A stretch of 64,000 nt of DNA from Pelagomonas calceolata. Taxonomy: Eukaryota > Sar > Pelagophyceae > Pelagomonadales > Pelagomonadaceae. The DNA lies in the NCBI GenBank assembly GCA_918797485.1, contig CAKKNE010000001.1, forward strand, positions 4,030,001-4,094,000. The letters run 5' to 3'. The notes under the pieces were generated by a model. The model was not told where the DNA came from. It was given only the letters and a program-made list of their open reading frames with translations, and did no database searches. Positions 10,011 to 52,234 of the stretch are shown piece after piece. How positions within the stretch are numbered: the stretch's first letter is position 1; every line of letters begins with the position of its first letter. The translations under genes were made by a program, and so were the position numbers.

Positions 10011-12289
10011 CTAGTGCAGCTGCGCGACGTCGTGCTCGCGCTCGTGGACGGACTTGAGGAGGTGCGTGAACTCCTGCAGCGAGATGCTCCCGTCCCGGTC
10101 GTGGTCCAGCTCCTCCACGAGGATGGTCATCTCCTCCTCCGTCATGCTGATGCCGAAGCGCCGCAGGCCCTCCGTGAACTCGCTGTGGGCCACGCTCCCG
10201 CTCCCGTCGTTGTCGAAGAGGGCGAACACCTTCTTCGCCGTGTGCTCGATGGACTGGTCGTTCTCCGACGTCTCCGCCTGCGTCGCCATGAAGCTGAGGA
10301 ACTCGCTCCGGCTCACCTGGCCGTCGCCGTCGTGGTCCATGCCGGTCAGCATCGCCGCCGCCTGCGCGCCCGACGACTCCATGCCCAGCGACGCCAGCAG
10401 CTCGCTGAGCTCGTCCGCGTCGAGGTGGCCCGTGCCGTCCGCGTCGTACAGGTCGAAGGTCTGGGCCAGCTGCCGCTGGTCCTCCTCATTCACTCCCGTG
10501 GCCGAGGCGCGCGGCGACAGCGCCTGCTCGGGGCCGCCCGGCGTGGCCGGCGCGGTCACGATCTGCGCCCGGAGGCCGTAGAGTGTCTTCAGGAGCTTCA
10601 CGGCGCGCGAGGCCTTCGTCTCCCGGAGGACCTGGCCGACCAGTTTCCGGTTGCGAAACGTGCCCACCGAGCCGCAGTGGATGGCCAGCGGCACGGCCTC
10701 GCGCGCGACGAGCGCGATGCCGACCGTCGGCGCGAGCGCGAAGAGGACGTAGCCGCCCGTCGCCGGCACCGACGAGTGCTTGCACACGCGCGGCGCGAAG
10801 GTCATCACGACCAGCGACACGTAGACCGCCTGGAGCAGCAGCAGGAGCCGGCAGGCGAAGACGTGCGACTCGTGGCCCTTCTCCTCGAAGAGGAAGAGCC
10901 GGTGCTGCTTGTTCGGCGCGTGCCCGCAGAAGAGCCGCCGCACGTGGTGCCGCTCCGCCTCCTCGATCCGCGCGTCGACGGCGCAGGCCCAGCCCGGGAG
11001 GTCCTGGCCGACGATCGGCGTGAACTCGCCCCTCGTGTCCGCGCCTCCAATGTAATCGCGCGCCGCCGGGTCCATCGTGCCCCGGGCGATCCGGCGCACG
11101 TGGTTCAGGAACGCGAGCGCCAGCGCGAAGATCGCGTACTCGAAGGCGACCCAGCCCGCGGCCAGGAGGAAGGGCCCGTCGTTGACGGCCACGACGCCGC
11201 ACCACGCGACGGCCAGCGCCTCGAGGACGACCCAGGTCGGCCAGTCCACGTCGACCATCTCGACGAGGTCCTCGGACAGCGAGAGCATGAGGTAGCGCGC
11301 GTAGTCGAACGTGGCCGGGAGCCTGTTCCTGGAGTCGGCGTGCGGCGGGAGGAGGCTCCGGTCCCGCAGGAACTCCTGGCGCATGCCCCAGTACGCGATG
11401 ACCTCCTTCTTCGACAGGCGGCCGAGGATCGGCGTGTTTGGTGAAGGCGGCGGCGGCGCGCCCGCGAGCCACGGGTAGGGCACGTTACTGTCCGCGACGG
11501 CCGCGCACCACTTGTCCAGGGCGCGCCACCTTCTCTTCAAGTTGTTGCCCACGCGCACCATGCCCATGACGAGCAATACAAAGACGATCATCACCAAAAA
11601 CAGCGTGTAGTGCGCCGTCTCCACGAGCTCCTCGAGCTCCTCCTCCTCGACCTCCTCGCCGTACAGCACGTGGGCCAGCAGGCCCCAGAGCCCGCACTTG
11701 CCCGCCACCGTCGTCACGATCGACAGGAAGCCGAGCACCGTGACCTCGGCGAACGTCTGCCTCACCACGGGCTTCATGGTCGGCACGCTCGAGTGGATCA
11801 TGTGCTCCTGGGTCCGTTCGAAGAAGATCGTGAGCGCGACGAGGAACGACAGGATGCCGAGCAGCGTCGCGGCCATGGTCACCTGTGTGGAAATCAACCA
11901 GTGCGTCGGGTGCACCCGATAATTCTTCACTAAGTCATTTCTCGGCGATGACGCGGCAGTGCTGGCCCCGTCGAGCGGTGAGGAACCAGCACCGCCACGC
12001 CATCGAGCAGGCATCACGTCGATGGCGTGGAGGTCGACGCTACGATGCAGCACGCAATTTTGATTTCCACACAGATGGTCACCTTGCCCATCTCCGGCGC
12101 CTCCTCGTGGAAATTTTCCATGGCCTCGGCTCGTCCGGGCAGCCCGCGCCGCCCGCTGCGACGCGTTTGCCTCCAAGCGGCGCGCTCGATCTCGATGACA
12201 GCGATTTCAGTGGCGGGTTTTGCGGCCGCATAGCTTTCGTCCCTCATGTCTCGCTTGGAGACGCTCCCAGGCGCCCCCGGCGCTCGCAT
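10011..12289 (-). CDS. MLO-like multipass membrane protein with four C-terminal EF-hands
   Basis: Two exons (12083-12289 and 10011-11882) are joined across an introner, restoring MGK-VTMAATLLGILSF. About seven hydrophobic segments follow. The order matches MLO proteins: a helix ending in FFERTQE, an LGFLSIVTT helix, an HYTLFLVMIVFVLLVMG helix, an ALDKW stretch, and a LSLSEDLVEMV motif before WPTWVVLE. The C-terminus has four canonical EF-hand loops (DADGTGHLDADE, DHDGDGQVSRSE, DNDGSGSVAHSE, DHDRDGSISLQE), where plant MLO has only a calmodulin-binding site. A calcium-gated membrane function is inferred. The start is uncertain: ATG at 12289 or the later ATG at 12121. Confidence 0.72.
11883..12074 (-). 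mobile_element. Introner 1 (192 bp)
   Basis: The ends are CTGTGTGGAAATCAA and TTGATTTCCACACAG, flanked by perfect 8 bp duplications (plus strand ATGGTCAC at 11875-11882 and 12075-12082). On the gene strand the intron is the duplicated GTGACCAT plus the element. The donor is GT, the acceptor is the AG of the terminal repeat, and the phase is 0. Confidence 0.95.
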
Positions 12290-12597
12290 GCCACTGTCCG
12301 ATGCAAGCTCGCATTTCTAGAGGGACTCTACTCTGCCTCTGCCAAACCTGCCCAGAAATCGGCCTCTCCGCGCGTCTCGAAGCTGCCCTTCGCTCGCCGG
12401 GTCTCGGAGCAGTCGATTTCGAGCAGTCCTGCGGCTCGTGGCAAGGGAGCCATCACTGTCTGCGGCTGAGCCTCCGCTGGGGGCAGCATAAGCTGTGAGC
12501 TGAGCCTCTGAGCCTCCGCTGGGCAGCATTGCTGGGCTGAGCCTCTGAGCCTCCGCTGGGCAGCATTGCTGCCGCGCGGCGCTGTCGCGGCCAGACC
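12290..12597. other. Divergent promoter region with tandem repeats
   Basis: 308 bp between the MLO-like gene and the 12598 gene. The right half is a short tandem array (separate entry). No GCTAG palindrome. Confidence 0.5.
12464..12572. repeat. Tandem repeat, ~37 bp unit, about 2.9 copies
   Basis: Two near-identical 37 bp units (12499-12535 and 12536-12572) begin GCTGAGCCTCTGAGCCTCC and end GCAGCATTGCTG. A shorter diverged unit starts at 12464. The array ends 25 bp before the start codon of the next gene. Confidence 0.85.
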
Positions 12598-13188
12598 ATG
12601 GTGATGATCGCCGTGAAGGTGCCAGCCGGGGCCGTACCCGGGGATAAGGTCGACGCCGTCTACGACGGCCGCCGGGTGTCGTTCGTCGTGCCCCCATCGG
12701 TCCGGCCTGGCCAGTCAGTGCACGTGCCCGTGCCGGCGTCGGACAACAGGAAGGGCTCGCCCGAGCTACAGGCGCGGTTGCAGAAGCTCAGGGCCACGTC
12801 GTCGCGCAAGCTCAAGACGCCGTCGCCCACTACGCCCTCGTCTTCGCCTCTTCTGCTCTTCACGAAGAAGACGCCGCCGGCGAAGCCGGCGCGCCCGTCG
12901 AACGCCGAGCCCGTGGCGTACGCTAGCGTCCCCGGCGAAGCTCCAGACGACATTACCGCGAGCGCGGACCCCCCGCCGCGCCCTCCGCCGCGCCGCGACG
13001 AAAACGGGGCCCGAGCATTCGCCAAGGCGCCGCGCCAATCGCCGCCCGCCGCGGTCGCGGCCGCCATGCCCTACGCCGACGTCGAAGGTGAAAGCGCCGA
13101 CTTCTGCGGCTGGCTCGAGCCCATCCGGAGCATCACGTACGAGGCGTCCGACGACGAGCGGCCGTTCGCGTGCGGGTGCGTCGCGTAG
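12598..13188 (+). CDS. Hypothetical protein with N-terminal VPAGA/PGD module
   Basis: 196 residues. The first ~50 contain the pattern VKVPAGAVPGDKVDAVYDGR then VPPSVRPGQSVHVPVP, a small beta-rich module seen in many stramenopile proteins of unknown role. The middle is low complexity (Ser/Pro/Lys). The C-terminus YEASDDERPFACGCVA ends in a CxC motif that could be lipidated or bind metal. No membrane segment or signal peptide. The function is not recognised. Confidence 0.65.
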   Translation: MVMIAVKVPAGAVPGDKVDAVYDGRRVSFVVPPSVRPGQSVHVPVPASDNRKGSPELQARLQKLRATSSRKLKTPSPTTPSSSPLLLFTKKTPPAKPARPSNAEPVAYASVPGEAPDDITASADPPPRPPPRRDENGARAFAKAPRQSPPAAVAAAMPYADVEGESADFCGWLEPIRSITYEASDDERPFACGCVA

Positions 13189-13291
13189 CTCTGCCTCGGT
13201 CCCCTACTCATCACTGGCGGCGCGCGTGTATAAGCCATCTTGCAATTATCGCCCTTGGCCGGATTAAATTTAATTGTCACACAACAACCAG

Positions 13292-14288
13292 TTAGTTACA
13301 CGGGCGGTAATGCTCGCACGGCACGGCCACCGCCTGGACGACTGGCATCTCCAGCCCGTCCGCCGATTGCGCGACGCCGACCGGCATGGACGACACAGCC
13401 GTCACCTCGGCGAGGGGCGGCAGGGGTCGGACGCGCATGCGCTCCAGTTGCTTCGCCCGCCGCCGCGCCTTCATGATCGAGTGCGCGAACGTGAGGAGCG
13501 TGCCGCCGCAGATGGTGACCAGCACCGTGATCCAGAAGATGTCTATCGGCCGGCAAAAATCAGTGTTGTCGAGCTCCTTCCGGTGTGCGAGGTAATGCGC
13601 GGAGGGCACGCCGCCCAGTTCCGTGTGCTCGCAGACGCACCCCGTCGCGCAATGGACGCCGCGGTAGCTGCGCGACAAGACACAAGACGTGTCGACCCAG
13701 CGCTTGCTGCCCCGGAAGTTGATGTAGGCGCACTGGCTCATCTTGCACATACCTGTGTTGACGCAGAGCCTCCGATGGCGTGCCGCGATGGTTCCGACTC
13801 AGATGCGCACCCACGTCCGCCGGGTAGCCGCGGCGCCAGGCCGTGAACGAGTGATCGGGGCGCGCCGCGCTCGTCCAGCGCCAGCCCGAATCCGGCGACT
13901 TGTAGGTGCGCTGGTAGGCGCCGATGAGCAAATCGATGTCCTCGCCGACGAAGTGCCGCAGGAGCCGCTGCTGCGCCTGGTCCTCGACGCTTACTAAGGT
14001 ACCGCCGAGGCTGTTGCAGCCCTTCTCGCAGTCGCGGAAGTGCTTCCCCGGCGTGCCGGCGGCGTTGCACATCGACCACATCGTTTTATTACCGATCGTC
14101 GTAGCGCCGCTCGGCGGTACGAGGATGTGCCACCTCCCGACGCGCGCGTCTATCACGCGGTTGCGACCCTCCGGCCACCACTCCGGCCAGGTCGCGTTCG
14201 TCGCGTTCGTCGTTGGTGTCGTCGCGTTCGTTGCCGTCGCGCGGAGCGGTGCCGCGAGCACGACTGCTGTCAGCAGCAGACGCATCAT
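13292..14288 (-). CDS. C-type lectin-domain type I membrane protein
   Basis: Two exons (13811-14288 and 13292-13752) are joined in phase 1 to give 312 residues. The signal peptide is MMRLLLTAVVLAAPLRATAT, followed by N-glycosylation-rich NATTPTTNATNATW. The lectin-like domain carries HFRDCEKGCNSLGGTLVSV, LIGAYQRT, SGWRWTSAARPDHSFTAW, and after the intron CAYINFRGSKRWVDTSC, the typical final Cys-containing strand. One membrane helix (WITVLVTICGGTLLTFAHSI) and a basic cytoplasmic tail follow. A surface-recognition role is inferred. Carbohydrate-binding residues are not clearly conserved. Confidence 0.75.
13753..13810 (-). mobile_element. Possible strongly eroded introner (58 bp intron)
   Basis: On the gene strand the intron starts GTGCGCATCTGAGTCGG, contains GCACGCCATCGGAGGC and ends AACACAG. 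These pieces resemble, in order, the terminus, hairpin core and 3' end of the introners. No target duplication survives. Removal restores the lectin frame. The element origin is inference; the intron itself is well supported. Confidence 0.4.
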
Positions 14289-15366: not shown

Positions 15367-15493
15367 GCGCGTAAGAGATCGCGCCGCCGTCCGCCGTCCA
15401 CCTCGTTCGAACCCCGCACCTTAGAAAGGCAGCTTTCCAGCTGCGCTCGGGGGCTGCCTTCATCAAACAGCAGAAGCCAGCGGCGCAGCCAAG

Positions 15494-16279: not shown

Positions 16280-16346
16280 GCCCCGGGACTAAACACACCA
16301 CATGTTAGGAGTAGCCGCACCGGTCTTGGCACGGGCGAGCGGGCGC

Positions 16347-17849: not shown

Positions 17850-19026
17850 CTACTTCGGCATGCTGCCCCGCGCGGCGCACGACGCCTGCCGCGCGACGCG
17901 GTAGCTCCGCGTCGCGTGGTGCGACAGCATCTTGTCGGCGACGTGCTCGTCGGCCAGGTGCTCCTGGTTGTAGCACGACAGCGTCTGCGCGACGCCGTCG
18001 TGGCCGCGCGCCGCCGCGTACTCCAGGGCCGTGTGGCCCCTGGCGTTCCGCCTGTGCACGATCTGCCGCCCGACGGTCCGCCGCAGCACGACCGCGAGGC
18101 GCTCGACGTCACCGATCTGGGCCAAGTAATGGACGATGGTGTTGCCCGCCGACGTCGCCTCCTGCAGCGTCGCGTCGTTGACCTGGCCGAACAGCGCCTC
18201 GAAGTCGCGGCCGTGCGCGTCGAGCAGCTGGTCCCAGTCGCAGCCCGCGGCCTGTGTGGAAATCAACCAGTGCGACGGGTGCACCCGACAATTCTTCACT
18301 AAGTCATTTCTCGGCGATGACGCGGCCGTCCTGGCTCGGTCGAGCGGTGAGGAACCGGCATCGCCACGCCATCGAGCAGGCGTCGCGTCGATGGCGTGGA
18401 GGTCGACGCGATGATTCAGCGCGAACGCGCCGTAAAATTTTGATTTCCACACAGCCCGCGGCCTTGGGGAGCGGCTTCGCCAGGGCCTTGGCGTCGGCGT
18501 GGATGGCCGACGGCGCGTACAGCTCCTTCGGGGCCTTCGGCGGCTTCTTCGCCCGCCGGCGCCAGAACTTGCGCCGCGACTTTTTGACGAGGCGGTCCTC
18601 CTCGAAGCGCGCGACCATGACCTCGAAGTCGCGGGGCGAGACGCGGCCGTGCTGGTCCGCGCCCACGTCCAGCATCATGCGCTTGGTCTGCGCCGTCGAG
18701 ACGCCCTTGCCGAGGCGCTCCCTGAGCCGGTCGCGCGCCTCCGAGACGTCGTAGTAGGCGGTCACCTCGGCGACGACCTCGACGAGCTTCGGCTCCTTGA
18801 CGACGCTGCGTCGCACCAGGCCCCAGCGGCTCGCGGCCCGGGTCTCCGCCGGCTTCGGCGGCGGGTCCGCGGGCCGCCGCGCCGCGCGGCGCTTGCTCTC
18901 GCGCCGCTTGATCTTGCGCCGCGGGGTCTTCTCGGGCTCCGCCTCGGACTCCTCCTCCGCGAGCGGCTCCCCGCCGAAGCAGGTGAGGAAGGCGTCGTCC
19001 TCGCGGCAGCCCATGCAGGCGAACAT
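17850..19026 (-). CDS. Ankyrin-repeat protein (paralogue B), introner-split
   Basis: Exon one (18463-19026, 188 codons) and exon two (17850-18251, 133 codons plus stop) join in phase 0 as PLPK-AAGCDWDQLLDAHG. The N-terminus MFACMGCREDDAF is Cys-rich and is followed by a basic KIKRRESKRRAARR stretch. A block with ADQHGRVSPRDFEVM parallels the EF-like block of paralogue A. The C-terminal ankyrin repeats read GNTIVHYLAQIGDVERL and GHTALEYAAARGHDGV, then end SYRVARQASCAARGSMPK. It arose by tandem duplication with 16347-17480. Confidence 0.78.
18252..18454 (-). mobile_element. Introner 2 (203 bp), GC donor
   Basis: Terminal repeats CTGTGTGGAAATCAA / TTGATTTCCACACAG, with perfect 8 bp duplications (plus CCCGCGGC at 18244-18251 and 18455-18462). 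Frame-preserving removal requires a gene-strand GC donor (GCCGCGGG), phase 0. The internal hairpin arms are at 18364-18375 and 18388-18399. Confidence 0.95.
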
Positions 19027-20236: not shown

Positions 20237-20489
20237 TGTAGTTGTTGTGGACGTGTGTAGACCCGCGACACACCCATTCGGCTAGACGAAGCGGTGCGAT
20301 GAAAGCTCGGGGCAAAAACCCGCACCAGTCGAACTGAGATGAAAACACGCACGTCGTGAGCCTTACGCGCAGCGCAGACGGACAGCCGCAATCTCGCGCA
20401 CGCCACATCTATTTCCTCGTCATATTTGGCCAGCCTGTCCGCGGTGCGACAGCCATCTGTACTGCAAAACCGACTCACTCTCGAGGAGC

Positions 20490-23097: not shown

Positions 23098-24100
23098 ATG
23101 CAGCTCAAAGCCATCAATGGCATCATCGCATTGGCATGCGCCACCAAAGCGCTGCAGCGGCCACGCGTCATCATTGCGCCCGCGCAATTCGGCGTGCCGA
23201 AGGATTACGACGACCTGAGCGCGTTGCTCCGGCAGCGCGGCCACACCGTCGCGTGCGCGCCGCTGAGTCGACTCTCGTGGCTGCGAATCGTGCCATCGGT
23301 TTTCACCGAAGCGTTTTTCAAGGGCGAGCTCAAGCCGCAGGGCACCCTGGACTTCTTCTTCGAGGCGCTCGACGCGGCCGTCGCGGACGTGGGGCCGGAC
23401 GAAGACATAGCAATCCTAGGCCACAGCATCGGCGGCTGGGTGGCCCGCGCGTGGGTCGTCGACCGGGGCGAGCAGCGCGTCAAGCGCTTCGTGACGCTGG
23501 GCACGCCGCACAACGAGCCCCCGGAGGGCCTGTTCTCGAACATCGACCAGACGAGAGGTTTACTGAAATACGTCCGCGCGAACTGCCCGCCGGACGCGTC
23601 CATTTTCACGTGCGTCGCGGGCACGGCCACGTCGACCGCCGCGCTCGGCGACGTCTTCAAGCTCGATGCGTGGGACGAAGAGTTGAGGCGGAGCCCGCTG
23701 CTCGAGGCGCTGGTCTCGTTGCCGTCCTACCTGGCGCTCTCCGGGAAGAACCCGTTCGGCGTCAAGGGCGACGGCCTCATCCCCGTGGCGACGGCCAGTG
23801 CGGAAATCAACTAGTGCGTCAGGCCGGCCTGGAGGTATTATTTGCTATTCTGGCCGCCTCGACGCAGCGCGAGAGTGCTTGGCGTCCTCGCACGAGGCGT
23901 CTTGGGCTTACTCGCCCGAACGTTTGATTTCCGCACAGGCGACGGCCTGCCTCGCGGACTGCCCGTCCATCGAGGTCGACTGCCACCACAGCGACTTCGT
24001 CCCGACGGCGCTGGACTCGATCCGCCTGCCGGAGACGTACCCCTGGTACGGGTCGCCCGCGGTCTTCGAGGCCTGGGCCGACGCCCTAAGCATCAACTAG
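23098..24100 (+). CDS. Alpha/beta-hydrolase (lipase-like), introner-split
   Basis: Exons 23098-23787 and 23939-24100 join in phase 0 to give 283 residues. The leader MQLKAINGIIALACATKALQ may be a signal peptide. The nucleophile elbow is GHSIGGWVARAW (GxSxG), with LGTPHNEPPEG after it. The acid residue is likely in GVKGDGLIPV and the catalytic His in CHHSDFVP, which lies on exon two. Splicing is therefore needed for an intact triad. Lipid or ester hydrolysis is inferred, substrate unknown. The 3' end overlaps the convergent gene at 24093 by 8 bp. Confidence 0.82.
23796..23938 (+). mobile_element. Introner 10 (143 bp), GC donor
   Basis: Ends CAGTGCGGAAATCAA and TTGATTTCCGCACAG, with perfect 8 bp duplications GCGACGGC (23788-23795 and 23939-23946). 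The intron is the left duplication plus the element, with a GC donor in phase 0. It is shorter than full-length copies and lacks part of the core. Confidence 0.93.
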
Positions 24101-24754: not shown

Positions 24755-26900
24755 ATGAAAGGCCATCATCACCGGCGCCGCAACAGCGCCGTGCGCCTCT
24801 TCGTGGCGACGTGGGTCTTCATCGCGGCGCTATGCACCGCGGCCGTGCTGACCACGTGGGCCACGACGAGCGACGAACCGGTGCACAGCGCGCGGCCGCC
24901 GCCCCCGCGGCTTGACGACACGCGCCGCGCCGTCGCCCTGGCCCTGGCGCCCTGCGCCCCGGAGATGCAACTGTGCACCGCGGTGACGCGGGATCCCTTC
25001 CCGCGAGCGACCGGGACCGCAAAGGACGCCACGGTGACGGCGGAGATGCGATCCGTCCTCGGGCGAACGCTCGCGACGATCCGAGACGACGGCGCGGGCG
25101 ACCTCCGGCCGGCGCCGGCGCCGCGCGCGACGTGCGTCGTGCCGACACGGGACGGCACCTTCGCCCAGAGGTTGGCCGCCTGGGCGGCGCAGCAGGCGCC
25201 CGGCCGCGTCGTCTTCACGGTCGCGGACGCGAACTACGCCGAGTACATGGCCGACGCGCGGCTCGACACCTCCCGGACGTTCGGGACCAATCTCTTAGTG
25301 GTCGCCCTCGACGAGGCCGCCGCGGTCGCCGCGTGCGCCGCGGGCTGCGCCGTCGTCCGGTTCGGCGGCGGCAAGGGCAAGGACGCGATCTACGAGGCCA
25401 AGTACGGCACGCTGCACCTCCTGCTCTCGCTGAAACGGGACGCGACGTTCCGGGAGATGGACGTCTGGCACCTGCGCGACCCGGCGGCGGGTACGAAGGA
25501 GGCGGACGTCGTGTTCAGCGTGCACCAGGACAACCCCTACAACATCAACGCGGGCTGGATCCACGCGCGCGGCGGTGTGGATACGGCGCGTTTGTTTGAG
25601 GACCTCGTGAAATACCTGAAATTAAACCCAAAGGCCTTCGACCAGCAGGTCCTGAACTGCATGGTGTCCGTGTCGTCGGCGCGGGACGAGTGCGACGCCA
25701 AGGGCGTCGCCGCGCAGGATCCCATCCTGCGGCGGTGGACGACGCCGCCGGCGCGGGTGACGCACGCGACCATCGGCCCCGACGTCCTCGTGGCCCACGC
25801 CCGGCCCTACGTCATGGCCTGTGCATAAATCAAATTGTCGAGGCGCGTCTCCGCCACTGCCGAATCATGACCTCCACGCCATCGACGCGACCGCCGGCTC
25901 GATGGCGTGGCGGTGTGGTCTCTTACCGCTCGATTCAGTCATCAAGGTCGCGCGTTCTCGCCGAGAAATGACTTAGTGAAGAATTATCAGGTATCCGACT
26001 CACTGTTTGATTGGCGCACAGGTCATGGCGGCCACGAGGGCGGTGCACGTGCTGACGACGATCCCGCTGACCGACGCGCGGGGCAAGACCGACGTCGCGC
26101 GCGAGCTCATGCTCTGGCCGGGCGCGCGGGACTACTATAGGGTCGGCGCGGGCCACCGCTACCTCGCGGTGCGCGGGGGCGTGCTCTCGACGTCGTCGCC
26201 GCACCACTTCCACGAGTGGCGCTGGGTCAACGCCGCCCTGACGGAGCTGGTCTGGCTGGCGCGGCTGACGGGCCGCGTGCTGGTCTGGCCGCGCATCTTC
26301 GATTTCCAGCAGTACCACCACGCGGCGGACCACGTGGATTTGCGCAGCGTCGAGGAGGTGCTGGGCGGCTGGCGGAGTTGGCGCGAGTCGACGTTCTTCG
26401 CGAACCCGCGGCTCGACGTGGCAGATGACGCGACCTACGCGTCCCTCGCGCTCCGCGGGTCGCGGGCGACGGTCACGCGGCGCAACCACTTCGACGGGCC
26501 GCCCGTCAACGCGCGGTCGTACGTGGTGAAGAAGACCGTTGACACGTGGGCCGTCGCCCTCGCGGACCCCGACCTGCGCGACGCGTCCGTCGTGACGGTC
26601 GACGTCGACGCGGCCGCGTTCCCCCTGAGCGACTGCTTCCACATGCGCGGAAGTTCCTGGTCCTGCGCCTCGTCCGTGAGCGCGGGGCGGGTCCCCCGCG
26701 AGCTCGCCCTGGTCCAGGCCAAGCTGAACTGGTGCCGCCAAAAATTAGGCTTCGACCACGCCAAGGCGCCGAACGGCGACGCCGCGCCCGTGGGCTACCA
26801 GCCCTCGAAGACGTGCGCCGTCCGCCTCGCGACAGGACTGGTGCGGAAGGCGCCGATCGCCCTTCCGGTGCCCGGGCGGAACTCGGCCGTAGAGAGTTAA
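24755..26900 (+). CDS. GT77-like nucleotide-diphospho-sugar transferase, type II membrane protein
   Basis: Exons 24755-25810 and 26022-26900 join in phase 0 to give 644 residues. The basic cytoplasmic tail MKGHHHRRRNSAVR precedes a signal-anchor (LFVATWVFIAALCTAAVLTTW). The transferase domain shows VVRFGGGKGKDAIYEAKYG, the DxD-type EMDVWHL, VVFSVHQDNPYNINAGWIHA and a FDQQVLNCMV block, as in plant XEG113/RRA arabinosyltransferases. A second conserved region after the intron (LVWLARLTGRVLVWPRIFDF) occurs in algal GT77 proteins. It probably acts in Golgi glycan synthesis. Confidence 0.8.
25819..26021 (+). mobile_element. Introner 9 (203 bp), variant termini
   Basis: Ends CTGTGCATAAATCAA and TTGATTGGCGCACAG, with perfect 8 bp duplications GTCATGGC (25811-25818 and 26022-26029). 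The donor is GT, phase 0. The core hairpin (CCACGCCATCGA, then TCGATGGCGTGG) is the same as in copies with CACACAG termini, so it is a subfamily of the same element. Confidence 0.94.
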
Positions 26901-26966: not shown

Positions 26967-28742
26967 TCACGCCGCCGCCGCGGCCGACTTGTGCTCGCGC
27001 CGCATGCGCTCGAACATGAGATCCGTCTTCACGCCGGAGACGACGTGCGACGGGTCGCGCGGCTCAGTGATGGCGACGTCGCGGCGAGGAGGCGCATCAC
27101 CCCGTACGACGACCTTATTCTTGCCCTCGAAGCGCAGATATTCGAGCGTGGCGCCGGCCTTCGCCGCCAGGTAGTCGCAGAACTCGGCCGTCGTCCGCAC
27201 GGCCGCGGGCCGGTTCGGAAACAGGTCCGCGAAGACACAACAGGGCACGACGGCAAAGGGCTTCCCGTACTTGAGCGCGGCGTCGACGGCGGCCTCGGTG
27301 GCCTCGTCGGCGTGGAGGGCCACGATGGCCGAACAGCTTTCCAGTAACGCGCGACCTGTGTGGAAATCAACCAGTGCGTCGGGTGCACCCGACAATTCTT
27401 CACTAAGTCATTTCTCGGCGATGACGCGGCCGTCCTGGCTCGGTCGAGCGGTGGGGAACCGGCATCGCCACGCCATCGAGCAGGCGTCGCGTCGCTGGCG
27501 TGGAGGACGACGCGATGATTCCGCACGAACGCGCCGTAAAATTTTGATTTCCACACAGCGCGCGACCCTGTTCCGAAGCCTCGAACGCAGGATCCAGCAG
27601 CGCCTCGACGCGTCGCGGATTCCGGGCCATCAGCTGGTCCCGGGGCGACGAGTCCGGAGTGAGCGCCGCGAGCCGCTTCCGCAGGAGCTTCCGCCGGCTC
27701 TTGCGCGGGACCTTGGCCGAGCGCGGGTCGAGCGACACCGCCCGGAGCCCGTGGACGCACTGGAGCTCCCAGGCGAGCTGGCCTCGGCCGCCGGCCACCT
27801 GTGTGGAAATCAAAATTTTACGGTGCGTTCCTGAATCGCCGCGTCGTCCTCCACGCCATCGATGCGACGCCTGCTCGATGGCGTAGCGATGCCGGTTCCT
27901 CACCGCTCGACCGAGCCAGGTCGGCCGCGTCATCGCCGAGAAATGACTTAGTGAAGAATTGTGCACCCGACGCACTGGTTGATTTCCACACAGCCGGCCA
28001 CGTCGAGCACGGGCCCCGCCTCGAGCAGACTCCGTCCAAATCTATGCAAGATCCACGCGCCGAACTCCACGTGCCGCGCCGCGTGCCGCCGCTTACGGTT
28101 GTCGTCGCCGGGCACGAAGCGCCAGGCGTTCTTATTGGCATACTTGTCGTACGCCGCGAACGGGTCCGCCGCGTCCTGCTTGAGGTCGTGGTCCCGCCTC
28201 AATCTTAACCGCCGGCCCCACGTCTCCTCGAACGCGTCGCGAAACGCGTGCCGGTAGGGGCAGTTTTTCGTCGTGCACGCGTCGCCGCGCGCCCACACTT
28301 TACAAAGCACGTCCTTCTTCTCCCTTGTATCCGGGTTCTTCGCCGGCTTCTCCGCCGATGGCCTTTCCGTCAGGACCGCAAGCGCGTCGCAGCGCAACGC
28401 CCGGAGGCCTCGCCGCGAGCACGCGGGCTCTTCCCGCGCCTCGACGACGACGACGTCGGCCCGTTCGGCCGCCGGGGGGAACGTCGCGGCGGCGCACGCG
28501 AGCTGCCACTCGTCGTCCCGGCCCGTCCTCACGACGTCGAGGAACACGAGGTTCTTGCCGAGCCGCCGCCATCGTACTAACTTCGCTTCGAAGCGCTCGA
28601 GTGGTGCTTCGGTAGTTGCGGCGAGCGTGCGCTCCCAGCGCTGGGTCTTGTGGGTTGCAGCAGTGGGGCTCTCTGCGGGCACTGATGCGTTTTTGACGGG
28701 CACAGGCGTGGTGGTCGCCAGCACAGCAGTGGTGGTCGACAT
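26967..28742 (-). CDS. CCCH zinc-finger protein with C-terminal FEGKN domain, two introners
   Basis: Three exons (28002-28742, 27567-27798, 26967-27355) join to 453 residues. An N-terminal OB-like region (KLVRWRRLGKNLVFLDVVRT) precedes a CCCH finger (C-x8-C-x4-C-x3-H, VLCKVWARGDACTTKNCPYR-H). The exon-two junctions read VLDVAGGRGQLAWELQ and EASEQGRALLESC. The first, VAGGRGQLAWEL, looks like a methyltransferase glycine motif. The C-terminal block AVVPCCVFADLFPNR ... EFCDYLAAK ... LRFEGKN resembles SAM-dependent methyltransferase-like proteins. RNA binding plus RNA methylation is a reasonable inference, unproven. Confidence 0.75.
27356..27558 (-). mobile_element. Introner 3 (203 bp)
   Basis: Canonical CTGTGTGGAAATCAA / TTGATTTCCACACAG ends. 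Perfect duplications, plus CGCGCGAC (27348-27355 and 27559-27566). GT donor, phase 1. Confidence 0.95.
27799..27993 (-). mobile_element. Introner 4 (195 bp), opposite orientation to its neighbour
   Basis: Same termini as introner 3 but inverted relative to it. Perfect duplications, plus CCGGCCAC (27791-27798 and 27994-28001). GT donor, phase 0. Confidence 0.95.
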
Positions 28743-29698: not shown

Positions 29699-31048
29699 CT
29701 AGTGCTTCGCCGCCTCGTTGACCTCCGCGGCCCAGCGCACCCACTTCTCCCGCGACTCGGCCGCGTGCGCGCCGTCCATATGAGGCGACACGACGCGCGC
29801 GCCGATGCGCGCGTAGTCCTGGCACGCCTGCATGGTCTTGACGTGCTCGCCCTCGTCGATGGCGATGTTCGTGAAGACGTCGAGCAGCGTCGCGCAGTCG
29901 GGACGGCGCGTCTCCGGCGGCGTCGAGACCTGGAAGTCGTCGAAGAGATACAAGTCGCCCGACGAGTAGTACGACGTCGCGACGGCGGGCGCCGGTAACC
30001 TGTGCGCAATCAATCAGTGAGTTGGGTGGATCCGTCGAGCAGCGCCGCGTTAATGAGAAGCGCAGCGAAATCTGATTTGTGCACTGCCAGTAACTCCGCC
30101 AGCCGCTCGCGGTTTTGGACGACGAACGTGCCGTACGTGTCGACGGCATGCGCCTCTAGCAGTTCCATGAACTGGTACGCGATCCTAGGACTGAAAAAGA
30201 ATACGACGTTGAGGATCCAATAGTACCCAATCGCGACGTGGTAGCCCAGGAAGCGGTCGGACCACAGCGAATTCCCCCCGAGCGCCTCCATGATCAGGAG
30301 GTGGTGCCTGTGTGGAAATCAAATTTGCGGACGCCCCATCGACGCGACGTCGTCCCCGTAACGGCACCACAATTCTCACTGGTTGATTTCACACAGGGCG
30401 GTGCAACTCGTTCCACTCCTCCGCGTTGTGGACCTTGCGTAATTCTGGGCCGCGCCACCACCCGAAGGACTCGTAGAGGTGCAGCATCGAGACGTACGAG
30501 AAGTAGGGAATCCGCGCGATGACCTCCAGGAACCAGAAGCGTTGTATGGGCCGCTCGTCGAAGAGCGTGTCCAAGAACAGGCACCCCACATCATAGAGCT
30601 TGCGCGACACGGGGTGCGCGTCGACGCGGCCGCCCGACGCCTCGCGTTTCCGCTCGGCCTCCGTCACGGCCTCGTTCGACAGGACGAGGCCCAGCGACGC
30701 GGGCACGGCGCCCGGGTCCCGCTTCTGGAGCCCGATGCTTTCGGCCACCTGTCCTAGGATCGTCGCGCCCTGCTTGAGAAAGTTCGTCTGCGCGAGCTCC
30801 CACGCCGGCGCAGGGCGGTCTCCATCAAAATAGTTGGCCTGCTCGACGTAGTTCGGCATCGTTGTGGTCGTCTTGGTCGTCGTCACGGCGTCGGCGTCCG
30901 CGAGCTCGGCCTCCTTCGCGTCGATGAGCTGCGTAATCGTGTCACCGTCGTCGTGCGCTGCGCGGCGCGTCAATGCATGGCGACGGGCCGGCACGACGAA
31001 TGCCGTCGCGGATGCCGATACGGCGACGACGGCCAGGAAACTTCGCAT
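29699..31048 (-). CDS. PTOX: Plastid terminal oxidase (alternative-oxidase family), two short introners
   Basis: Three exons (30405-31048, 30095-30307, 29699-29999) join to 385 residues. The leader MRSFLAVVAVSASATAFVVP is a plastid bipartite signal. The di-iron oxidase motifs appear only after splicing: FWFLEVIARIPYFSYVSMLH, WNELHHLLIMEALGGN (formed across the first intron), ELLEAHAVDTY, and NIAIDEGEHVKTM with the DExxH ligands. The second junction gives RLAELPAPAVATSYYSSGDL, as expected for PTOX (LPAP then YY then DLYLFD). It oxidises plastoquinol with oxygen, supporting carotenoid synthesis and photoprotection. Confidence 0.95.
30000..30086 (-). mobile_element. Introner 8 (87 bp), variant termini, internally deleted
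   Basis: Plus-strand ends CTGTGCGCAATCAATCA and TGATTTGTGCACTG. The flanks CCGGTAAC (29992-29999) and CCAGTAAC (30087-30094) match 7 of 8. GT donor (gene strand GTTACTGG), phase 2. It lacks the core hairpin. Confidence 0.88.
30308..30396 (-). mobile_element. Introner 7 (89 bp), internally deleted, GC donor
   Basis: Plus-strand ends CTGTGTGGAAATCAAA and TTGATTTCACACAG (one C lost). The flanks GGTGGTGC (30300-30307) and GGCGGTGC (30397-30404) match 7 of 8. The gene-strand donor is GC (GCACCGCC), phase 2. Confidence 0.88.
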
Positions 31049-44033: not shown

Positions 44034-44480
44034 GGTCCCGGGTTATCCAGCGCGAGCAGGTGCTCTTCAGGTATCGCGAGGGGCTCGCACTTGTATTTGC
44101 CCTTGCCCGTCCGATGGTGGTGCTTGCAGAAGAACTGGTCGCACTTGCGGTCGACCCACTCCTTCTGGCCGTCCGTCTGCCTGCGCGCAATTCAACCAGG
44201 TGAGTCGGGTGCACGTCTGGAAGCGCCGTGAATTTGATTCGTGCGCCGCCGTCTGCAGCGTGCCGAACGAGGTCCCGGGCTTGACGTGGTGCGCGTGCTT
44301 GTTCGAGCGGCACCAGGCCTCGTCGTCGTGCGTCGCCATGGCCGCGAGGTGGTGCGCGGCGCGCGTGCGGGCGTTCAGGCGCCGTCGCTCGCGGTCGTCG
44401 GCCGCGCCGCGGAGGCGCGCGGCGGCGGCCGTCGTGGCCACGATCGTGGCCGCGAGGAGGCACGCGAGGGCGCGTCGCAT
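44030..44480 (-). CDS. Small secreted basic Cys/His protein, introner-split
   Basis: Exons 44257-44480 and 44030-44180 join in phase 2 to give 124 residues. The signal peptide is MRRALACLLAATIVATTAAA. The mature part contains DDEAWCRSNKHAHHVKPGTS, then across the junction SFGTLQTDGQKEWVDRKC, then DQFFCKHHHRTGKGKYKC. Four Cys and many His suggest a compact metal-binding or disulfide fold. The family is not recognised. The coding quality of exon two is visible only when the 76 bp intron is removed. Confidence 0.65.
44181..44248 (-). mobile_element. Introner 11 (68 bp), GC donor, smallest copy
   Basis: Plus-strand ends CTGCGCGCAATTCAA and TTGATTCGTGCGCCG, with perfect 8 bp duplications CCGTCTGC (44173-44180 and 44249-44256). 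GC donor (gene strand GCAGACGG), phase 2. Between the ends it keeps only GAGTCGGGTGCAC-type subterminal sequence. Confidence 0.88.
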
Positions 44481-44801: not shown

Positions 44802-46361
44802 ATGATGCGCCTGCTCGCAACCTTGCTGGCCGTGGAAGCGACCTATCCGGGCCCCCACCGCGGCTACCGGGGCATGCCCGAGACGGAGCGCATCGAATTT
44901 TATGAGAGGAACGGGTATCGCTGGCCCCCAACCAAAGCGACGCAGGGCTGGCCGCCCGTCGCACGGAAGGAGTCGGCCGCGTACAAAAAGTCCAGGGACG
45001 AGATGGAGGCGTGGATCCGGCGGAATTTGACGACGTACAAGGCGACCTGGGACGAGTGGTCCAGCATGGTTCAATCTAGGGCGATGCCCCGCTTCACGGA
45101 GAAGGGTTTCGCGGTCGTCGACTATAGTGATACGGAGTTCTACAGAGAGCTCAAGGCGCAGTACGATAAGAACGTGAGGGACCCCGTCGCCTTCTCGCAA
45201 CTACGAAAGGAGAAGATGCAGGGCACGGGGAATGCTCGATTTTATTCACAATCGCAATTGAACGCAAAGTTGTTGGACGGACTGAGACCGAACCTCGAAG
45301 AGTGGAGCGGGATTGAGCTGCAGAACGGCCAGTCCTACGGCGTCCGCGTCTACGGGGAAGGTTCCACATTGGTCAACCACATCGATAGATGTGAAACACA
45401 TGTAATTAGCGCGATCTTCCACATCGACCACGACCTCGACGAGCCCTGGCCGCTGGAGATTGAAGACCACGACGGCAATTGGCACGAGGTCAAACTCTGT
45501 GTGGAAATCAACCAGTGTGTCAGGTGCACTGGTAATTCTTCACTAAGTCATTTTGCGGCGATGACGCGGCCATGCTGGCTCCGTCGAGCGGTGAGGAACC
45601 GGCATCGCCACGTCATCGAGCAGGCGTCGTGTCGATGGCGTGGAGGTCAACGCGACGATTTAGCACGTACGCGCCGTAAAATTTTGATTTTCACACAGGT
45701 CAACCTCAAGCCCGGCGAGGTTTGTTATTATGAGTCCGCGAAGCAGTACCACGCGCGCTTGCAGCCGATGCGGGGCCGCGCCTACGCCAGCGTGTTTTTA
45801 CACTGGTTCCCGGCCCAAAATTGGAACTGGACGATGTGGGACGGCCACGTCATGGTGCCGCCGGACTTTGAAGAGAAGGAGGCGTCGGGCTTCTTCCGGC
45901 GGAGGGCCGTCGCGAACGCGGGGCCGCCGCCCTTCCTGCGGCATTTTGATGCTTATTGGTCGAAAAGGGGGCGGCCTTCCCCATCATTGCCGCGCGGCGT
46001 CGAGAACCCCGTCCAGGAGTACGAGGGCTTCGGCGCGCCGTCGCCGACGCCCGAGGAGACGCAGCGCTTGCGCGTGGTGAATGCGGCGGCGGCGCGCAAG
46101 CACGCGCAGCGGGGGGACGTGGCGGAGCTGCACGCGCTGCTGGACCGCGTGGCCGTCGACTTCTTGGACGACGGCGACGAGAACGGCTGGACAGCTTTAC
46201 ATGAAGCGGCCCGGAGCGGCCACGCCGACGTCTTGAGGCTCCTCGTCGCCAAGGGCGCCGACGCGGCCAAAAGGACGAAGTACGGCCAGAGCGTCCATGA
46301 CATCGCCCGCGACGCGCACGACGCGGACCACCCGGCCATGCGGTTCCTGGGGGAGTTGTGA
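44802..46361 (+). CDS. Secreted prolyl-4-hydroxylase-like dioxygenase with ankyrin repeats, introner-split
   Basis: Exons 44802-45488 and 45699-46361 join in phase 0 to give 449 residues. Signal peptide MMRLLATLLAVEATYPG. The 2OG-Fe(II) oxygenase domain has YGVRVYGEGSTLVNHIDRCE (HxD iron ligands) and, after the intron, VNLKPGEVCYYESAKQYHAR with the distal His. A YASVFLHWFP strand closes the fold. The C-terminal 130 residues hold ankyrin-like repeats (GWTALHEAARSGHADVLRLL). Ankyrin repeats on a secreted hydroxylase are unusual. Retention of the 210 bp intron keeps the frame open. Confidence 0.85.
   Translation: MMRLLATLLAVEATYPGPHRGYRGMPETERIEFYERNGYRWPPTKATQGWPPVARKESAAYKKSRDEMEAWIRRNLTTYKATWDEWSSMVQSRAMPRFTEKGFAVVDYSDTEFYRELKAQYDKNVRDPVAFSQLRKEKMQGTGNARFYSQSQLNAKLLDGLRPNLEEWSGIELQNGQSYGVRVYGEGSTLVNHIDRCETHVISAIFHIDHDLDEPWPLEIEDHDGNWHEVKLCVEINQCVRCTGNSSLSHFAAMTRPCWLRRAVRNRHRHVIEQASCRWRGGQRDDLARTRRKILIFTQVNLKPGEVCYYESAKQYHARLQPMRGRAYASVFLHWFPAQNWNWTMWDGHVMVPPDFEEKEASGFFRRRAVANAGPPPFLRHFDAYWSKRGRPSPSLPRGVENPVQEYEGFGAPSPTPEETQRLRVVNAAAARKHAQRGDVAELHALLDRVAVDFLDDGDENGWTALHEAARSGHADVLRLLVAKGADAAKRTKYGQSVHDIARDAHDADHPAMRFLGEL
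45497..45698 (+). mobile_element. Introner 5 (202 bp)
   Basis: Ends CTGTGTGGAAATCAA and TTGATTTTCACACAG (one substitution). The flanks GTCAAACT (45489-45496) and GTCAACCT (45699-45706) match 7 of 8. GT donor, phase 0. The intron, duplication included, is 210 bp with no in-frame stop. Confidence 0.93.
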
Positions 46362-46375
46362 GTAAAATCCAAATA

Positions 46376-48729: not shown

Positions 48730-48754
48730 GTCCCCATTCCTGCCCTAAGGACCT

Positions 48755-49018
48755 TTATACGTTCTTTCGCGTCGGCGGCGCGTCCCGAGGGGCCTTATTC
48801 CTGCGCCGCGGCGCGTCGATGGCGTCGGGGGTGGGGACATTCGCGCGGCGTATATTCTCTGTTGCAAGCTCGCACGCGCCAGGACTAGTGGGCAGAGCCC
48901 AGATGCGGAGCCCCGGCGTCCCGCGCGGGTCAGATGCGCGGGTCGTGTCCTCGACGCCGACGCCGGTTGCCGCTCGCACGCGTACCAGTGCGTCACGCAC
49001 GCTGCGAAACGTCGTCAT
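48755..49018 (-). CDS. Possible small hypothetical protein
   Basis: An 87-codon frame from the ATG at 49018 (MTTFRSVRDALVRVRAATGV ...). It ends 25 bp from the stop of the mutase gene, a spacing usual here for convergent pairs. The middle LRIWALPTSPGACELATENI looks protein-like, but no family is recognised, and the frame could be chance in GC-rich DNA. Otherwise the 48730-49224 interval holds nothing recognisable. Confidence 0.3.
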   Translation of the reverse strand: MTTFRSVRDALVRVRAATGVGVEDTTRASDPRGTPGLRIWALPTSPGACELATENIRRANVPTPDAIDAPRRRNKAPRDAPPTRKNV

Positions 49019-49224
49019 ACGCTTCCTGCGCACCGCGCATTTTCGAAACCCGGAGGCTCAGATCCACGGACACGCCATCCAACTTGGCCTCTTCCGCGTG
49101 CGTACAGGGGATCTGGCCGCGAGGCGCAGCCCTTCCCCGCTTGTAATTGGGATCCATCTCACCTGTACTGCGTCTGTGCGCCGGCGCAGCCCGCGCGCCG
49201 CATCGAGAAGGCGCCTCCACAGCC

Positions 49225-50322
49225 ATGACGGGTAAAACTTTTATAGCGCCCCTAGCGCCGGCCACGCCGACCAAGAAGACGCCAGAGGAGGCGCCGGCGA
49301 CGCCGGAGGCCGTGCGCGTCGAGCCCCAGCTGGCCGGCGGCGAGAGCTGGGGCGATGGGCTCGAGGCGATCAAGTCCAACAATGTGGTGGTGGGTTTGAA
49401 TCTGATCCAGCCGGCGGAATCACACGCGTGTCGGCCCGCGCGCGCGTCGGACGAGGACCTGAATGAGAGCCGGGAGGCGGATGTGGTTGTCGAGGCACCG
49501 CTCGGCCCTTTGCTGTTCCGGGGCAAGATGCCCACGTCCAGGATACTCTGCGAACGAGCGGGCAGCAAGGTCTGCGTGGGCAAGTCGCGAGGCAAGAAAT
49601 GTGTGGTCAAGACCTTCTCCCCGAAGACCGCGGCTGCTGGTTGCCGGGAACTCGTGTTACTGAAAGCTGCGCAAGGTCCTAGAATAGTGCAGTTGCTCGG
49701 CGCGGCCTTTGCCCAAACACAGCCGACCATAGTGATGGAGTTTTGTAGCCGAGGAACGCTAGATGACGCTGTGAGGAACTGGCTGGATGTAAGAGGCGCA
49801 AGGAGGGTCGCTGCACATGTCGCGGAAGCCTTGGCGCACTTACACTCGTTACGGCCGGCAATAGTCCATAGAGACGTGAAACCCAAAAACGTGCTGATCT
49901 GTCGGGACGGTTCCGCAAAATTGGCAGATTTTGGACTGGCGCGACCCTTCCCCGGAAGAACAGCCAATGATCAATATGTGATGACGGGCGAGACGGGGAC
50001 CGTACGATGGATGGCGCCGGAAGCGTTTCGAGGCGACCCCTACTCGCTGAAAGTTGATATATACTCGTGGGCCATGGTAGCATGGTTTGCCCTGTGCGGG
50101 CAGGCGCCCTACGCGGAAAAAACTTTGAAGGACCTGCGGCGGACGCACCTCGAGCTGCACGACCGGCCTCCTTTGAAGGGCCGGCCAACCAATAGTGGAG
50201 TGGCGTCTCTGTTGAGCCTGGCGTGGGCCGAGGCGCCCGGCGACCGGCCCGAGGCCGCGTCTCTTTCTAGAGCGCTGGCGCCCTTCTCCGTGAAAAGGCG
50301 GCGGCTCCTGCCGTTCTGGTAG
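49225..50322 (+). CDS. TKL-type protein kinase
   Basis: 365 residues from the ATG at 49225. The N-terminal ~110 residues are low complexity. The kinase domain has a compact N-lobe (GSKVCVGKSRGKKCVVKTF, with VVK the ATP lysine), hinge VMEFCSRGTLDDAV, catalytic loop IVHRDVKPKNVLICRDGSAK, DFGLA, and activation segment GETGTVRWMAPEAFRG, which places it near the tyrosine-kinase-like/Raf-type group. All catalytic residues are present. Substrate unknown. Confidence 0.9.
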   Translation: MTGKTFIAPLAPATPTKKTPEEAPATPEAVRVEPQLAGGESWGDGLEAIKSNNVVVGLNLIQPAESHACRPARASDEDLNESREADVVVEAPLGPLLFRGKMPTSRILCERAGSKVCVGKSRGKKCVVKTFSPKTAAAGCRELVLLKAAQGPRIVQLLGAAFAQTQPTIVMEFCSRGTLDDAVRNWLDVRGARRVAAHVAEALAHLHSLRPAIVHRDVKPKNVLICRDGSAKLADFGLARPFPGRTANDQYVMTGETGTVRWMAPEAFRGDPYSLKVDIYSWAMVAWFALCGQAPYAEKTLKDLRRTHLELHDRPPLKGRPTNSGVASLLSLAWAEAPGDRPEAASLSRALAPFSVKRRRLLPFW

Positions 50323-50775
50323 GAAAACATTCCCGAGTCCTTGTTGTGGACCAAAGACCGCGGGCTGGCGGCGCGCCGGTTTCGTACGCGCGCCCGAGGA
50401 CGTCCAGCTAGCAACTTCCCCTTCTCTTCTGCTGTAAATAAAATTACCTAAAAGCCAACCATACATTTCCGGTTATGGTAACCGTACCGACCGTACCGTA
50501 CCTGTACGTACCTGGCTGGTACCTGGCTGGTACCGAGCCACAAAATCCAAAGCCGGCACCGCGTCTATTTATCGAGACGGCGAGACTGGGCGCAACAAGA
50601 GTCAGCGCAGACCAAAAAGGCCGACACCGCGTCGTATCTATCGAGACGGCGAGTCTCAGACAGGCGCAAAACAGGCTGACTCCTGGCTGAGTCTAATTAC
50701 TAAAAATTCGATTGCCATACGCAAGGCAAGATAAGCACTCGCTCGCGGACAAACAGAGATTGAGTACTTAAACAA
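50323..50775. other. Intergenic region with short repeats
   Basis: 453 bp upstream of the sulfotransferase. It contains GTACC-rich simple sequence at about 50476-50535 and an imperfect ~68 bp tandem duplication (about 50547-50606 and 50611-50680, sharing CACCGCGTC and TATCGAGACGGCGAG). No gene. Confidence 0.5.
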
Positions 50776-52234
50776 ATGTCGCCACTTTGTTTCATCCTGG
50801 CCGCGCTTGTCTGCGCGGCCCCGGAGGGACGGGATACGCGGCCTCGGGCACGGACGCCCCCGGGCCCGTCGACGTACTGCGGCCAGGGATACAGGTGCCG
50901 CGGCAGCGGCCGCGAGATGCGGTGCCACCCGGACGTCGCGTGCGACGACAGGGAATTAAGAAGTGGTCCGTGCGCGGTAGCGACCGCGTGCCTCGAAAAG
51001 TGCGTCGCGGACCCGGGGGGCGAGGCCTGCGACATGCCCTGCCACGGATCGCCGCTGCGCTCGCGCGCGACCGGCGCCGCCCCGCCGCCGGACCTGAAGG
51101 TTGCGTATTTTTTGAATCATCGCAAGGTGGCGGGGACGAGCATGCTCGCCGCGCTCAAGCGAGTCGCGGGGCGCGTCGGCGTCGACGGGGGCTCGCTGCT
51201 CGTCGCCAAGGAGGATCTCCGGCCCTTCAACCCGAATTTGTTCTGCAAACCGGAGACCAGCGCGGGCGTGCTCTACGTCACGGTACTTCGGCACCCGCTG
51301 CACCGGCTCGTGAGTTTGTACCACTCCGAGAACAACTTCGGGGACCGGAACCCGGCCGCGAACCGCAACGCAACGGCCTGGGGCGCCTTCCTCGACGGCT
51401 CGTGCACGCGGCACAGGTGCGCGGCGCCGAACTACTACACGCGGCGCTTGCTCGGCTTCGCCCGCGTGACGAAGGCGCCCGCGGACTGCAAACCGCGCGG
51501 GTTGAAGGGGCGGAACTCCGAACAATGCGACGTCGCGGCGCCGGGGACCTGCGCCGAGCCGACGTTCCACCCCCGGTGGCTCCACGACGTCGACCAGGCC
51601 GCGGCGCGGCAGATCGATTGCTGCAACGCCTTCGCGGAGGGCAAGACGCGCCGCGGTCGCCACCTGTGTGGAAATCAAAATTTTACGGCGTGTTCGTGCA
51701 GAATCGTCTCGTCGCCCTCCACGCCATCGACGCGACGCCTGCTCGATGGCGTGGCGATGCCGGTTCCTCACCGATCGACCGAGCCAACACGGCTGCGTCA
51801 TCGTCGAGAAATGACTTCGTGAAGAATTATCGGGTGCACCCGACGCACTGGTTGATTTCCACACAGGTCGCATCGGGTTCGCGTTCTCGTGCGACTGCGG
51901 GCGAGGCGCGGGCCGAGTGCTGAGCGACTTGACGAGCGACGTGGGTATCGCCGTCTCGTCGAGCGAGGTGGCCTTCCAGGTCGCGAAGCGTGTCCTCGAT
52001 GCGTTCGACTTCGCCGTGGCGCTGGAGCGCATGGACGAGCGCGCGGCGCAGAAACTCTCCCAACTCCTCGGCACGACCGTGACGTTCCCACACCACCGCA
52101 CAAGGGCCGGAGGCAGCGGCGGCTTCAACAGACTCGCCGCGGCCATGCCGACCAGCATCCGCGATCGCATCCTGCGGCAACACGACGTGGACGTGCGCCT
52201 CCACGCCTGGCTCGCGGCGCGCCCCCTCCCTTAA
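50776..52234 (+). CDS. Secreted/Golgi carbohydrate sulfotransferase-like protein, introner-split
   Basis: Exons 50776-51655 and 51867-52234 join in phase 1 to give 415 residues. Signal peptide MSPLCFILAALVCAAPEG. A Cys-rich segment (CGQGYRCRGSGREMRCHPDV) precedes the sulfotransferase domain. The 5'-phosphosulfate loop is FLNHRKVAGTSMLAALKRV and the 3'-phosphate region VTVLRHPLHRLVSLYHSENN, the two PAPS-binding signatures. After the intron the product runs RIGFAFSCDCGRGAGRVLSD, then VAFQVAKRVLDAFDFAVALE. It probably sulfates glycans. The acceptor is unknown. Confidence 0.82.
51664..51866 (+). mobile_element. Introner 6 (203 bp)
   Basis: Canonical CTGTGTGGAAATCAA / TTGATTTCCACACAG ends. The flanks GTCGCCAC (51656-51663) and GTCGCATC (51867-51874) match 6 of 8, the most diverged duplication among full-length copies. 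GT donor, phase 1. The core hairpin is intact. Confidence 0.92.

Follow-up and report, generated by a model that had tools for sequence, protein, structure and literature searches.

How new spliceosomal introns originate is an old question. The window analysed here, a stretch of 64,000 nucleotides from an ocean alga whose genome matches Pelagomonas calceolata RCC100, raises it in a concrete form: are the short repeated elements inside its coding sequences introns that were made by transposition? We consider it close to certain that short non-autonomous DNA transposons with terminal inverted repeats (TIRs) have become introns here, taking the donor from the duplicated target and the CAG from the element, with exact restoration of the mRNA.

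Elements in the window and across the genome

The preliminary description had listed eleven elements of 68-203 bp in nine genes. All its coordinates were reproduced, and the number of genes also stood, since E5 and E6 share one gene and E7 and E8 share another. Its tally of the target duplications was exact (8/8 in E1-E6 and E9; 7/8 in E7, E8 and E10; 6/8 in E11), and excision of one duplication together with the element joined open coding frames in 11 of 11 cases, as it had claimed. We could refine this last point: where the two duplication copies differ, the one to excise is the upstream copy on the host strand, and at E7 and E8 the residue seen in the annotated protein and in relatives is encoded by the downstream copy. 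The predicted introns are as follows.

E1 intron, 11883..12082, minus strand: element 11883-12074 plus the upstream target copy GTGACCAT; host, an EF-hand protein
E2 intron, 18252..18462, minus strand: element 18252-18454; donor GCCGCGGG (GC); host whose ankyrin match is weak and falls short of the Pfam threshold
E3 intron, 23788..23938, plus strand: element 23796-23938; donor GCGACGGC (GC); sense 5' end bearing the subfamily mark CAGTGCGG; host, a PGAP1-like alpha/beta hydrolase
E4 intron, 25811..26021, plus strand: element 25819-26021; donor GTCATGGC; host resembling a nucleotide-diphospho-sugar transferase
E5 intron, 27356..27566, minus strand: element 27356-27558; donor GTCGCGCG; host common to E6, without a Pfam match
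E6 intron, 27799..28001, minus strand: element 27799-27993; donor GTGGCCGG; host common to E5
E7 intron, 30000..30094, minus strand: element 30000-30086; donor GTTACTGG; host, an alternative/ubiquinol oxidase (PF01786)
E8 intron, 30308..30404, minus strand: element 30308-30396; donor GCACCGCC (GC); oxidase gene of E7, within the conserved ELHH segment
E9 intron, 44181..44256, minus strand: element 44181-44248; donor GCAGACGG (GC); ends decayed; host, a small unnamed gene
E10 intron, 45489..45698, plus strand: element 45497-45698; donor GTCAAACT; host with ankyrin repeats at its C-terminus
E11 intron, 51656..51866, plus strand: element 51664-51866; donor GTCGCCAC; no Pfam match in the host

One further decayed copy, absent from the earlier list, may lie at window position 7998. 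The family has TIRs of 15 bp and 8-bp target duplications, and the full-length copies (E2, E4, E5 and E11) give introns of 211 bp. In all eleven elements the upstream target copy on the host strand starts with GT or GC, and the sense 3' end is CAG.

We searched the 32.4-Mb genome for the terminus CTGTGTGGAAATCAA, as had been proposed, and found 1261 forward and 1255 reverse matches with at most one mismatch. The reversed motif matched only 2 and 0 times; therefore, the elements are not due to chance. A 61-bp terminal stretch occurred 76+88 times genome-wide with at most three mismatches. Copies are up to 97% similar, and the eleven of the window lie in nine genes; many similar copies placed as introns in unrelated genes are characteristic of introners.

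In the mechanism that we propose, a MITE-like element (about 203 bp at full length) would enter a gene and duplicate 8 bp of its target. Where the duplicated 8-mer starts with GT or GC in the sense direction, its upstream copy would serve as the 5' splice site, with its first two bases as the donor. The acceptor, CAG, would come from the terminal inverted repeat TTGATTTCCACACAG, along with a short run of pyrimidines and a TTGAT that resembles a branch point; this role of TTGAT is predicted from its sequence. The intron would then comprise the upstream target copy and the element, 211 bp if full length, and its splicing would restore the mRNA exactly. As intact copies have the same 15 bp at both ends, the element could splice in either orientation. 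Movement was presumably driven by a transposase.

Splice sites and rival explanations

We assembled a sample of 48 elements, 8 from the window and 40 from elsewhere in the genome, requiring a duplication match of at least 6/8 and setting the host sense strand by codon usage alone; 17 of 62 left ends found with at most one mismatch had no partner satisfying these rules and were left out. On the sense strand the upstream target copy opened with GT (36) or GC (12) in 48 of 48 elements, whereas on the antisense strand such a start was seen in 13 of 48 (Fisher p 2e-15). The background frequency of GT/GC is 3969/23010 (17.2%). The 27 elements with a confident strand behaved alike (27/27 sense versus 5/27 antisense). 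For the opposite end, we compared the terminal trinucleotides of the 48 elements together with E7, E8 and E9, leaving out the ends by which a copy had been found: 7 of 35 were altered at the sense 5' end and 0 of 30 at the sense 3' end (p 0.013), the CAG being retained in all 30. Thus one splice site is carried by the element and the other is co-opted from the duplicated target. Both orientations of the element relative to the gene were common. The duplications were perfect in 27 of the 48, with 15 at 7/8 and 6 at 6/8, and this local match supports insertion as DNA.

GC donors make up a quarter of the sampled copies.

Protein-level support for exact splicing covers two of the eleven elements, E7 and E8 in the alternative oxidase gene. 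The annotated P. calceolata protein P0001, which is partly model-based and comes from a contig of 6,277,007 bp, agrees with the product obtained by excising both at 100% identity over 385 aa, and P0006, an MMETSP transcript protein (96%), has no extra residues at either site, as splicing would leave it if its strain carries the two elements. The environmental contigs behind P0002-P0005, P0007 and P0008 may represent either transcripts or DNA that lacks the introns. The oxidase is full length only once E7 and E8 are taken out. The translations of P0032, P0047 and P0062 run unspliced into E8. No protein named as P. calceolata was present among the 120 of 129 matches listed for the E5/E6 host, or in the list of 21 matches for the E2 host, so that annotated splicing is unconfirmed at those hosts. 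At the nine sites other than E7 and E8, splicing is predicted from the sequence pattern.

These observations bear on three other explanations. It might be argued that the element contains both splice sites, with the donor at CTGT|GTGG, so that the mRNA would gain 12 bases per insertion (4 from the element and 8 from the duplication). Such an addition would likewise preserve the frame, intact elements do open with CTGTGTGG, and this mode is known from one family of the Tara 'Aureococcus sp.' genome (PMC9860276, Fig. 2 legend). We nevertheless give it very little credence. It predicts an unconstrained start of the duplication, against 48 of 48 GT/GC; the extra residues are absent from P0001 and P0006 at E7 and E8, and at E8 the four of them would land in the conserved ELHH segment; moreover, E3, E7 and E9 lack the CTG at that end. 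Copying through RNA, in which an excised intron enters new transcripts by reverse splicing and then reaches the genome by reverse transcription, is a reading that has been applied to fungal introners (PMC9860276), and the splice-site rule of all 48 sampled copies agrees with it. It is extremely improbable here, because the first eight intron bases match the local downstream exon and not other copies (27 of 48 perfectly), and both element orientations are common, which argue for DNA transposition.

A third view would hold that the elements are unspliced MITEs that disrupt genes, the flanking open frames being remnants or a chance product of GC-rich sequence. Indeed, this DNA commonly shows long antisense frames that are spurious. 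At the confident sites, however, codon usage picks out one strand and frame, the contrast between 48 sense and 13 of 48 antisense GT/GC starts requires selection on splicing, and the oxidase needs both excisions to reach its full length; hence we judge this view highly unlikely. The best reading remains the one put forward in the preliminary description, introners that move as non-autonomous TIR transposons. Its splicing is supported by the invariant GT/GC start together with the conserved CAG, by the agreement of P0001 and P0006 with exact removal of E7 and E8, and by the 211-bp full-length introns, which fit the reported peak at about 210 bp (PMC9481584).

Recent activity and the search for a transposase

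The site of E6 is uninterrupted in the environmental protein P0124 (contig listed at 51.8 kb), and another environmental protein has an E3-type introner at a site that is empty in RCC100. As read from their sequences, such presence/absence differences among proteins of environmental contigs indicate insertion polymorphism. Recent activity, which had been suggested from the window, is backed by these differences and by the copies that are up to 97% alike. P0011, P0013, P0017, P0127 and P0124 (at the E5 site) depart from the host frame into sequence without a clear match to window elements, and these parts were kept out of the introner claims. The terminus of P0123 resembles what we take to be a sequencing adapter.

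Pfam searches of the alga's own genome found one locus with a hAT dimer domain and one with DUF659, the latter below the cut-off. KDZ, MULE, P-like RNaseH (PF21787), IS1595/Merlin, DDE_Tnp_4, hAT-like RNaseH and zf-BED gave no match, and no transposase carrying the introner ends was found in these searches. Four of the seven empty searches were also blank in all 14 control genomes; therefore, absence from the genome is weak evidence. An 8-bp duplication had been taken as fitting each transposase family searched, which is untrue for some. The family could not be assigned to hAT MITEs by shared ends, since the two hAT-like loci found do not have those of the introners: both C4 and C5 have 8-bp duplications but ends of their own (CAGGGCAGCAGAAG and CTAGGTTGCC, respectively), and were rejected as partners. 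A third hAT locus may have escaped detection. No viral vector emerged: in three scans, stretches of family sequence 21, 24 and 27 bases long had no exact match in viral contigs, and excerpts of the report on mirusvirus introners (PMC12768974) showed no link.

We see about an even chance that these elements continue to move in today's ocean populations of Pelagomonas, with introner alleles segregating at several genes, new GC-donor introns tolerated at once, and a transposase that is missing from the assembly or of an unrecognised type.

Relation to known introners

The eleven recently mobile elements in nine genes show the making of introns with unusual clarity and while it is still variable. 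In this chromosome-scale genome of a marine alga, a single transposon end that makes introns is present in more than 1000 copies, many of them near-identical. Together with the insertion differences among environmental proteins, these copies allow one to measure how introns are born, how well GC donors are tolerated and how selection acts on new introns, and existing metagenomes and transcriptomes can be used for this.

The class of introner is already known, as in Aureococcus; the present family is new. Aureococcus anophagefferens is a pelagophyte, like Pelagomonas, and Huff, Zilberman and Roy reportedly described in 2016 that its introners carry one splice site and co-opt the other from the duplicated target. 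Aureococcus introners form introns of about 210 bp (PMC9481584), have direct repeats, TIRs of constant length and canonical splice motifs (PMC7789003), and co-opt splice sites and occur in both orientations (PMC10228655). Compared by description and not by sequence, the two are alike in their size of about 210 bp, TIRs, repeats, co-opted site and use of both orientations.

For P. calceolata itself, Guerin et al. 2022 (PMC9481584) reported an introner-like peak of intron length at 210 bp, and those introns are very probably the elements described here. The passages on this peak give the length and refer to a supplementary note; ends, duplications, splice rule and polymorphism are absent from them. 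Gozashti et al. 2022 (PMC9860276) described introner families with target duplications and TIRs that generate introns and are common in aquatic lineages, and the present family makes introns with the same two features. Family 4 of 'Aureococcus sp.' (PMC9860276) also has 8-bp duplications, but both of its splice sites are its own and each insertion adds 12 bp, whereas the present family co-opts its donor and adds no bases.

The introner family in the genome

The eleven window introners, E1–E11, were borne out as described, spread over nine genes, and their target duplications were, as the preliminary description had claimed, perfect in seven, 7/8 in three and 6/8 in one. The full-length type is ~203 bp; identity among the seven long window copies is 73–97% (89–97% without the divergent E4). 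A further end-like sequence runs from window position 7998 (CTGTGCGCAAATCAA, 2 mismatches), with a poor partner and a duplication of 5/8; from its sequence, it is possibly a decayed introner copy.

We carried out the genome-wide search that had been proposed, over 32,445,274 bp in 8 contigs; the RCC100 assembly of P. calceolata is described as six nuclear contigs, 32.4 Mb, together with a single contig each for plastid and mitochondrion (PMC9481584). The 15-bp end (≤1 mismatch) was matched at 1261 places on one strand and 1255 on the other; its reversed control had 2 and 0. A 61-bp terminal stretch (≤3 mismatches) gave 76 and 88 matches genome-wide (control, 0 and 0), with zero mismatches at 25 of the listed places.

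Splice sites of the introners

Read along the host strand, the intron that agrees with the protein starts with the upstream 8-bp target copy and ends with the CAG of the element. In the window, this upstream copy opens with GT in E1, E4, E5, E6, E7, E10 and E11 and with GC in E2, E3, E8 and E9, so that GT or GC is present in 11/11. We examined a wider sample of the window and 69 further genomic loci, most of which were selected for a perfect left end, and by requiring ≤3 mismatches at both ends and a duplication of ≥6/8 we found 50 elements, 48 of them unique; 17 of 62 left ends (≤1 mismatch), E8 included, had no qualifying partner and fall outside the sample. The host strand was set by a codon-usage score blind to the duplication; the window itself served to train this codon model, so the eight window elements partly depend on it, and the other 40 are independent.

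We observed that all 48 sense upstream copies open with GT (36) or GC (12), against a background of 3969/23010 on the sense flanks. On the antisense strand the count was 13/48, slightly above background (p 0.08; p-values here assume independent insertions). In the strand-confident subset (27 of the 48), GT or GC was found in 27/27 on the sense strand versus 5/27 on the antisense strand. GT is also preferred to GC, with 36/48 against an expected share of 31%. Beyond its first two bases the donor consensus of the 48 elements is slight: the exon has A at −2 in 13/48 and G at −1 in 18/48, and the AG that usually precedes a donor is not obligatory. In 12/48, a quarter of the sample, the donor is GC instead of GT.

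At the other end, we counted alterations of the terminal trinucleotide in the 48 sampled elements plus E7, E8 and E9, leaving out ends that had been used in finding the copy. It was altered in 7/35 sense 5′ ends and 0/30 sense 3′ ends (p 0.013). Because the acceptor role is confined to the sense 3′ end, this intact trinucleotide, with the acceptor end under selection, is what splicing predicts. Among the 27 strand-confident elements the intron start is in phase 0 in 14, phase 2 in 8 and phase 1 in 5, and both orientations relative to the gene are common.

Evidence from host proteins

In the oxidase gene, host of E7 and E8, the annotated P. calceolata protein P0001 is identical to the exact-removal product of both elements along its full 385 residues. 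At 96–98% identity, P0006, a protein from an MMETSP transcript, has no insert at either site; the environmental proteins P0002–P0005, P0007 and P0008 (also 96–98%) are insert-free there too, and may come from spliced transcripts or from intron-less DNA. P0032, P0047 and P0062 run out of frame into E8, which shows a filled, unspliced site. The two target copies of E7 and of E8 differ; the downstream copy encodes residues of P0001 and related proteins (ELHH; ELPAP), and the altered one is the upstream, intronic copy. No P. calceolata-named protein was present among the 120 matches listed, of 129, for the host of E5 and E6, nor among the 21 matches for the host of E2, a protein with a weak ankyrin match below the Pfam cut-off.

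Environmental proteins differ from RCC100 in their insertions. In the host of E5 and E6, P0124 is uninterrupted across the E6 site; elsewhere it has apparent frameshifts, and at the E5 site it diverges into sequence with no identified match. Its contig is listed at 51,814 bp, as is that of P0261, which carries the E2 3′ end, so the two are presumably on the same contig. P0062, which carries E8, and P0260, which carries E2, are both listed at 255,746 bp. Among E2-host proteins, P0255 has an E3-type introner after ALAKP (46/48 residues as in the E3 translation), a position without an introner in RCC100. P0257 has E3-type sequence that stops directly before AKPLPK, adjoining this ALAKP site, and P0245 has such sequence after TSA (33/35 residues). 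The oxidase proteins P0011, P0013 and P0017 depart after HVAIG, where RCC100 is continuous; this insert had no clear match among the window elements.

Other proteins are uninterrupted, namely P0121 at E5 and E6, P0123 and P0127 at E6, and P0241, P0243, P0244, P0245 and P0257 at E2; we did not count these as empty sites, because their contigs may be either genomic or transcript. The assignment of the environmental proteins to Pelagomonas rests on the identity of the matched parts, which is 92–99% for most and lower for P0124 (75%) and P0261 (87% over 12% of the query), both with apparent frameshifts; they may instead come from a close sister species. At the E2 site, the upstream target copy reads KASAC, not KAAGC, in the environmental proteins P0242, P0247, P0248, P0250, P0251, P0253 and P0254, and the shortened element of P0242 is open in frame throughout.

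Transposase search and known introners

Two hAT-like loci were found in the P. calceolata genome, both with 8-bp duplications:

hAT-like locus 1: L010 5542–9208, genome G000, contig C4, ~4.50 Mb; open frame of 721 codons, inverted ends CAGGGCAGCAGAAG (14/14), 8-bp duplication TTGCTCGC
hAT-like locus 2: L070 with L071/L072, genome G000, contig C5, ~1.22 Mb; open frame of 832 codons, inverted ends CTAGGTTGCC (13/14), 8-bp duplication ACACTCGG

Their ends are unrelated to those of the introners. Seven other transposase families (KDZ, MULE, P-like RNaseH (PF21787), IS1595/Merlin, DDE_Tnp_4, hAT-like RNaseH and zf-BED) gave 0 matches in the same genome. An 8-bp duplication by itself is not diagnostic of one superfamily.

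In the literature searched, only PMC9481584 connects Pelagomonas or pelagophytes with introners, and it already notes introner-sized introns in P. calceolata; the anatomy of these introners may be partly in print already. Introners with TIRs and duplications have been described in Aureococcus and other lineages (PMC9860276, PMC7789003, PMC10228655).
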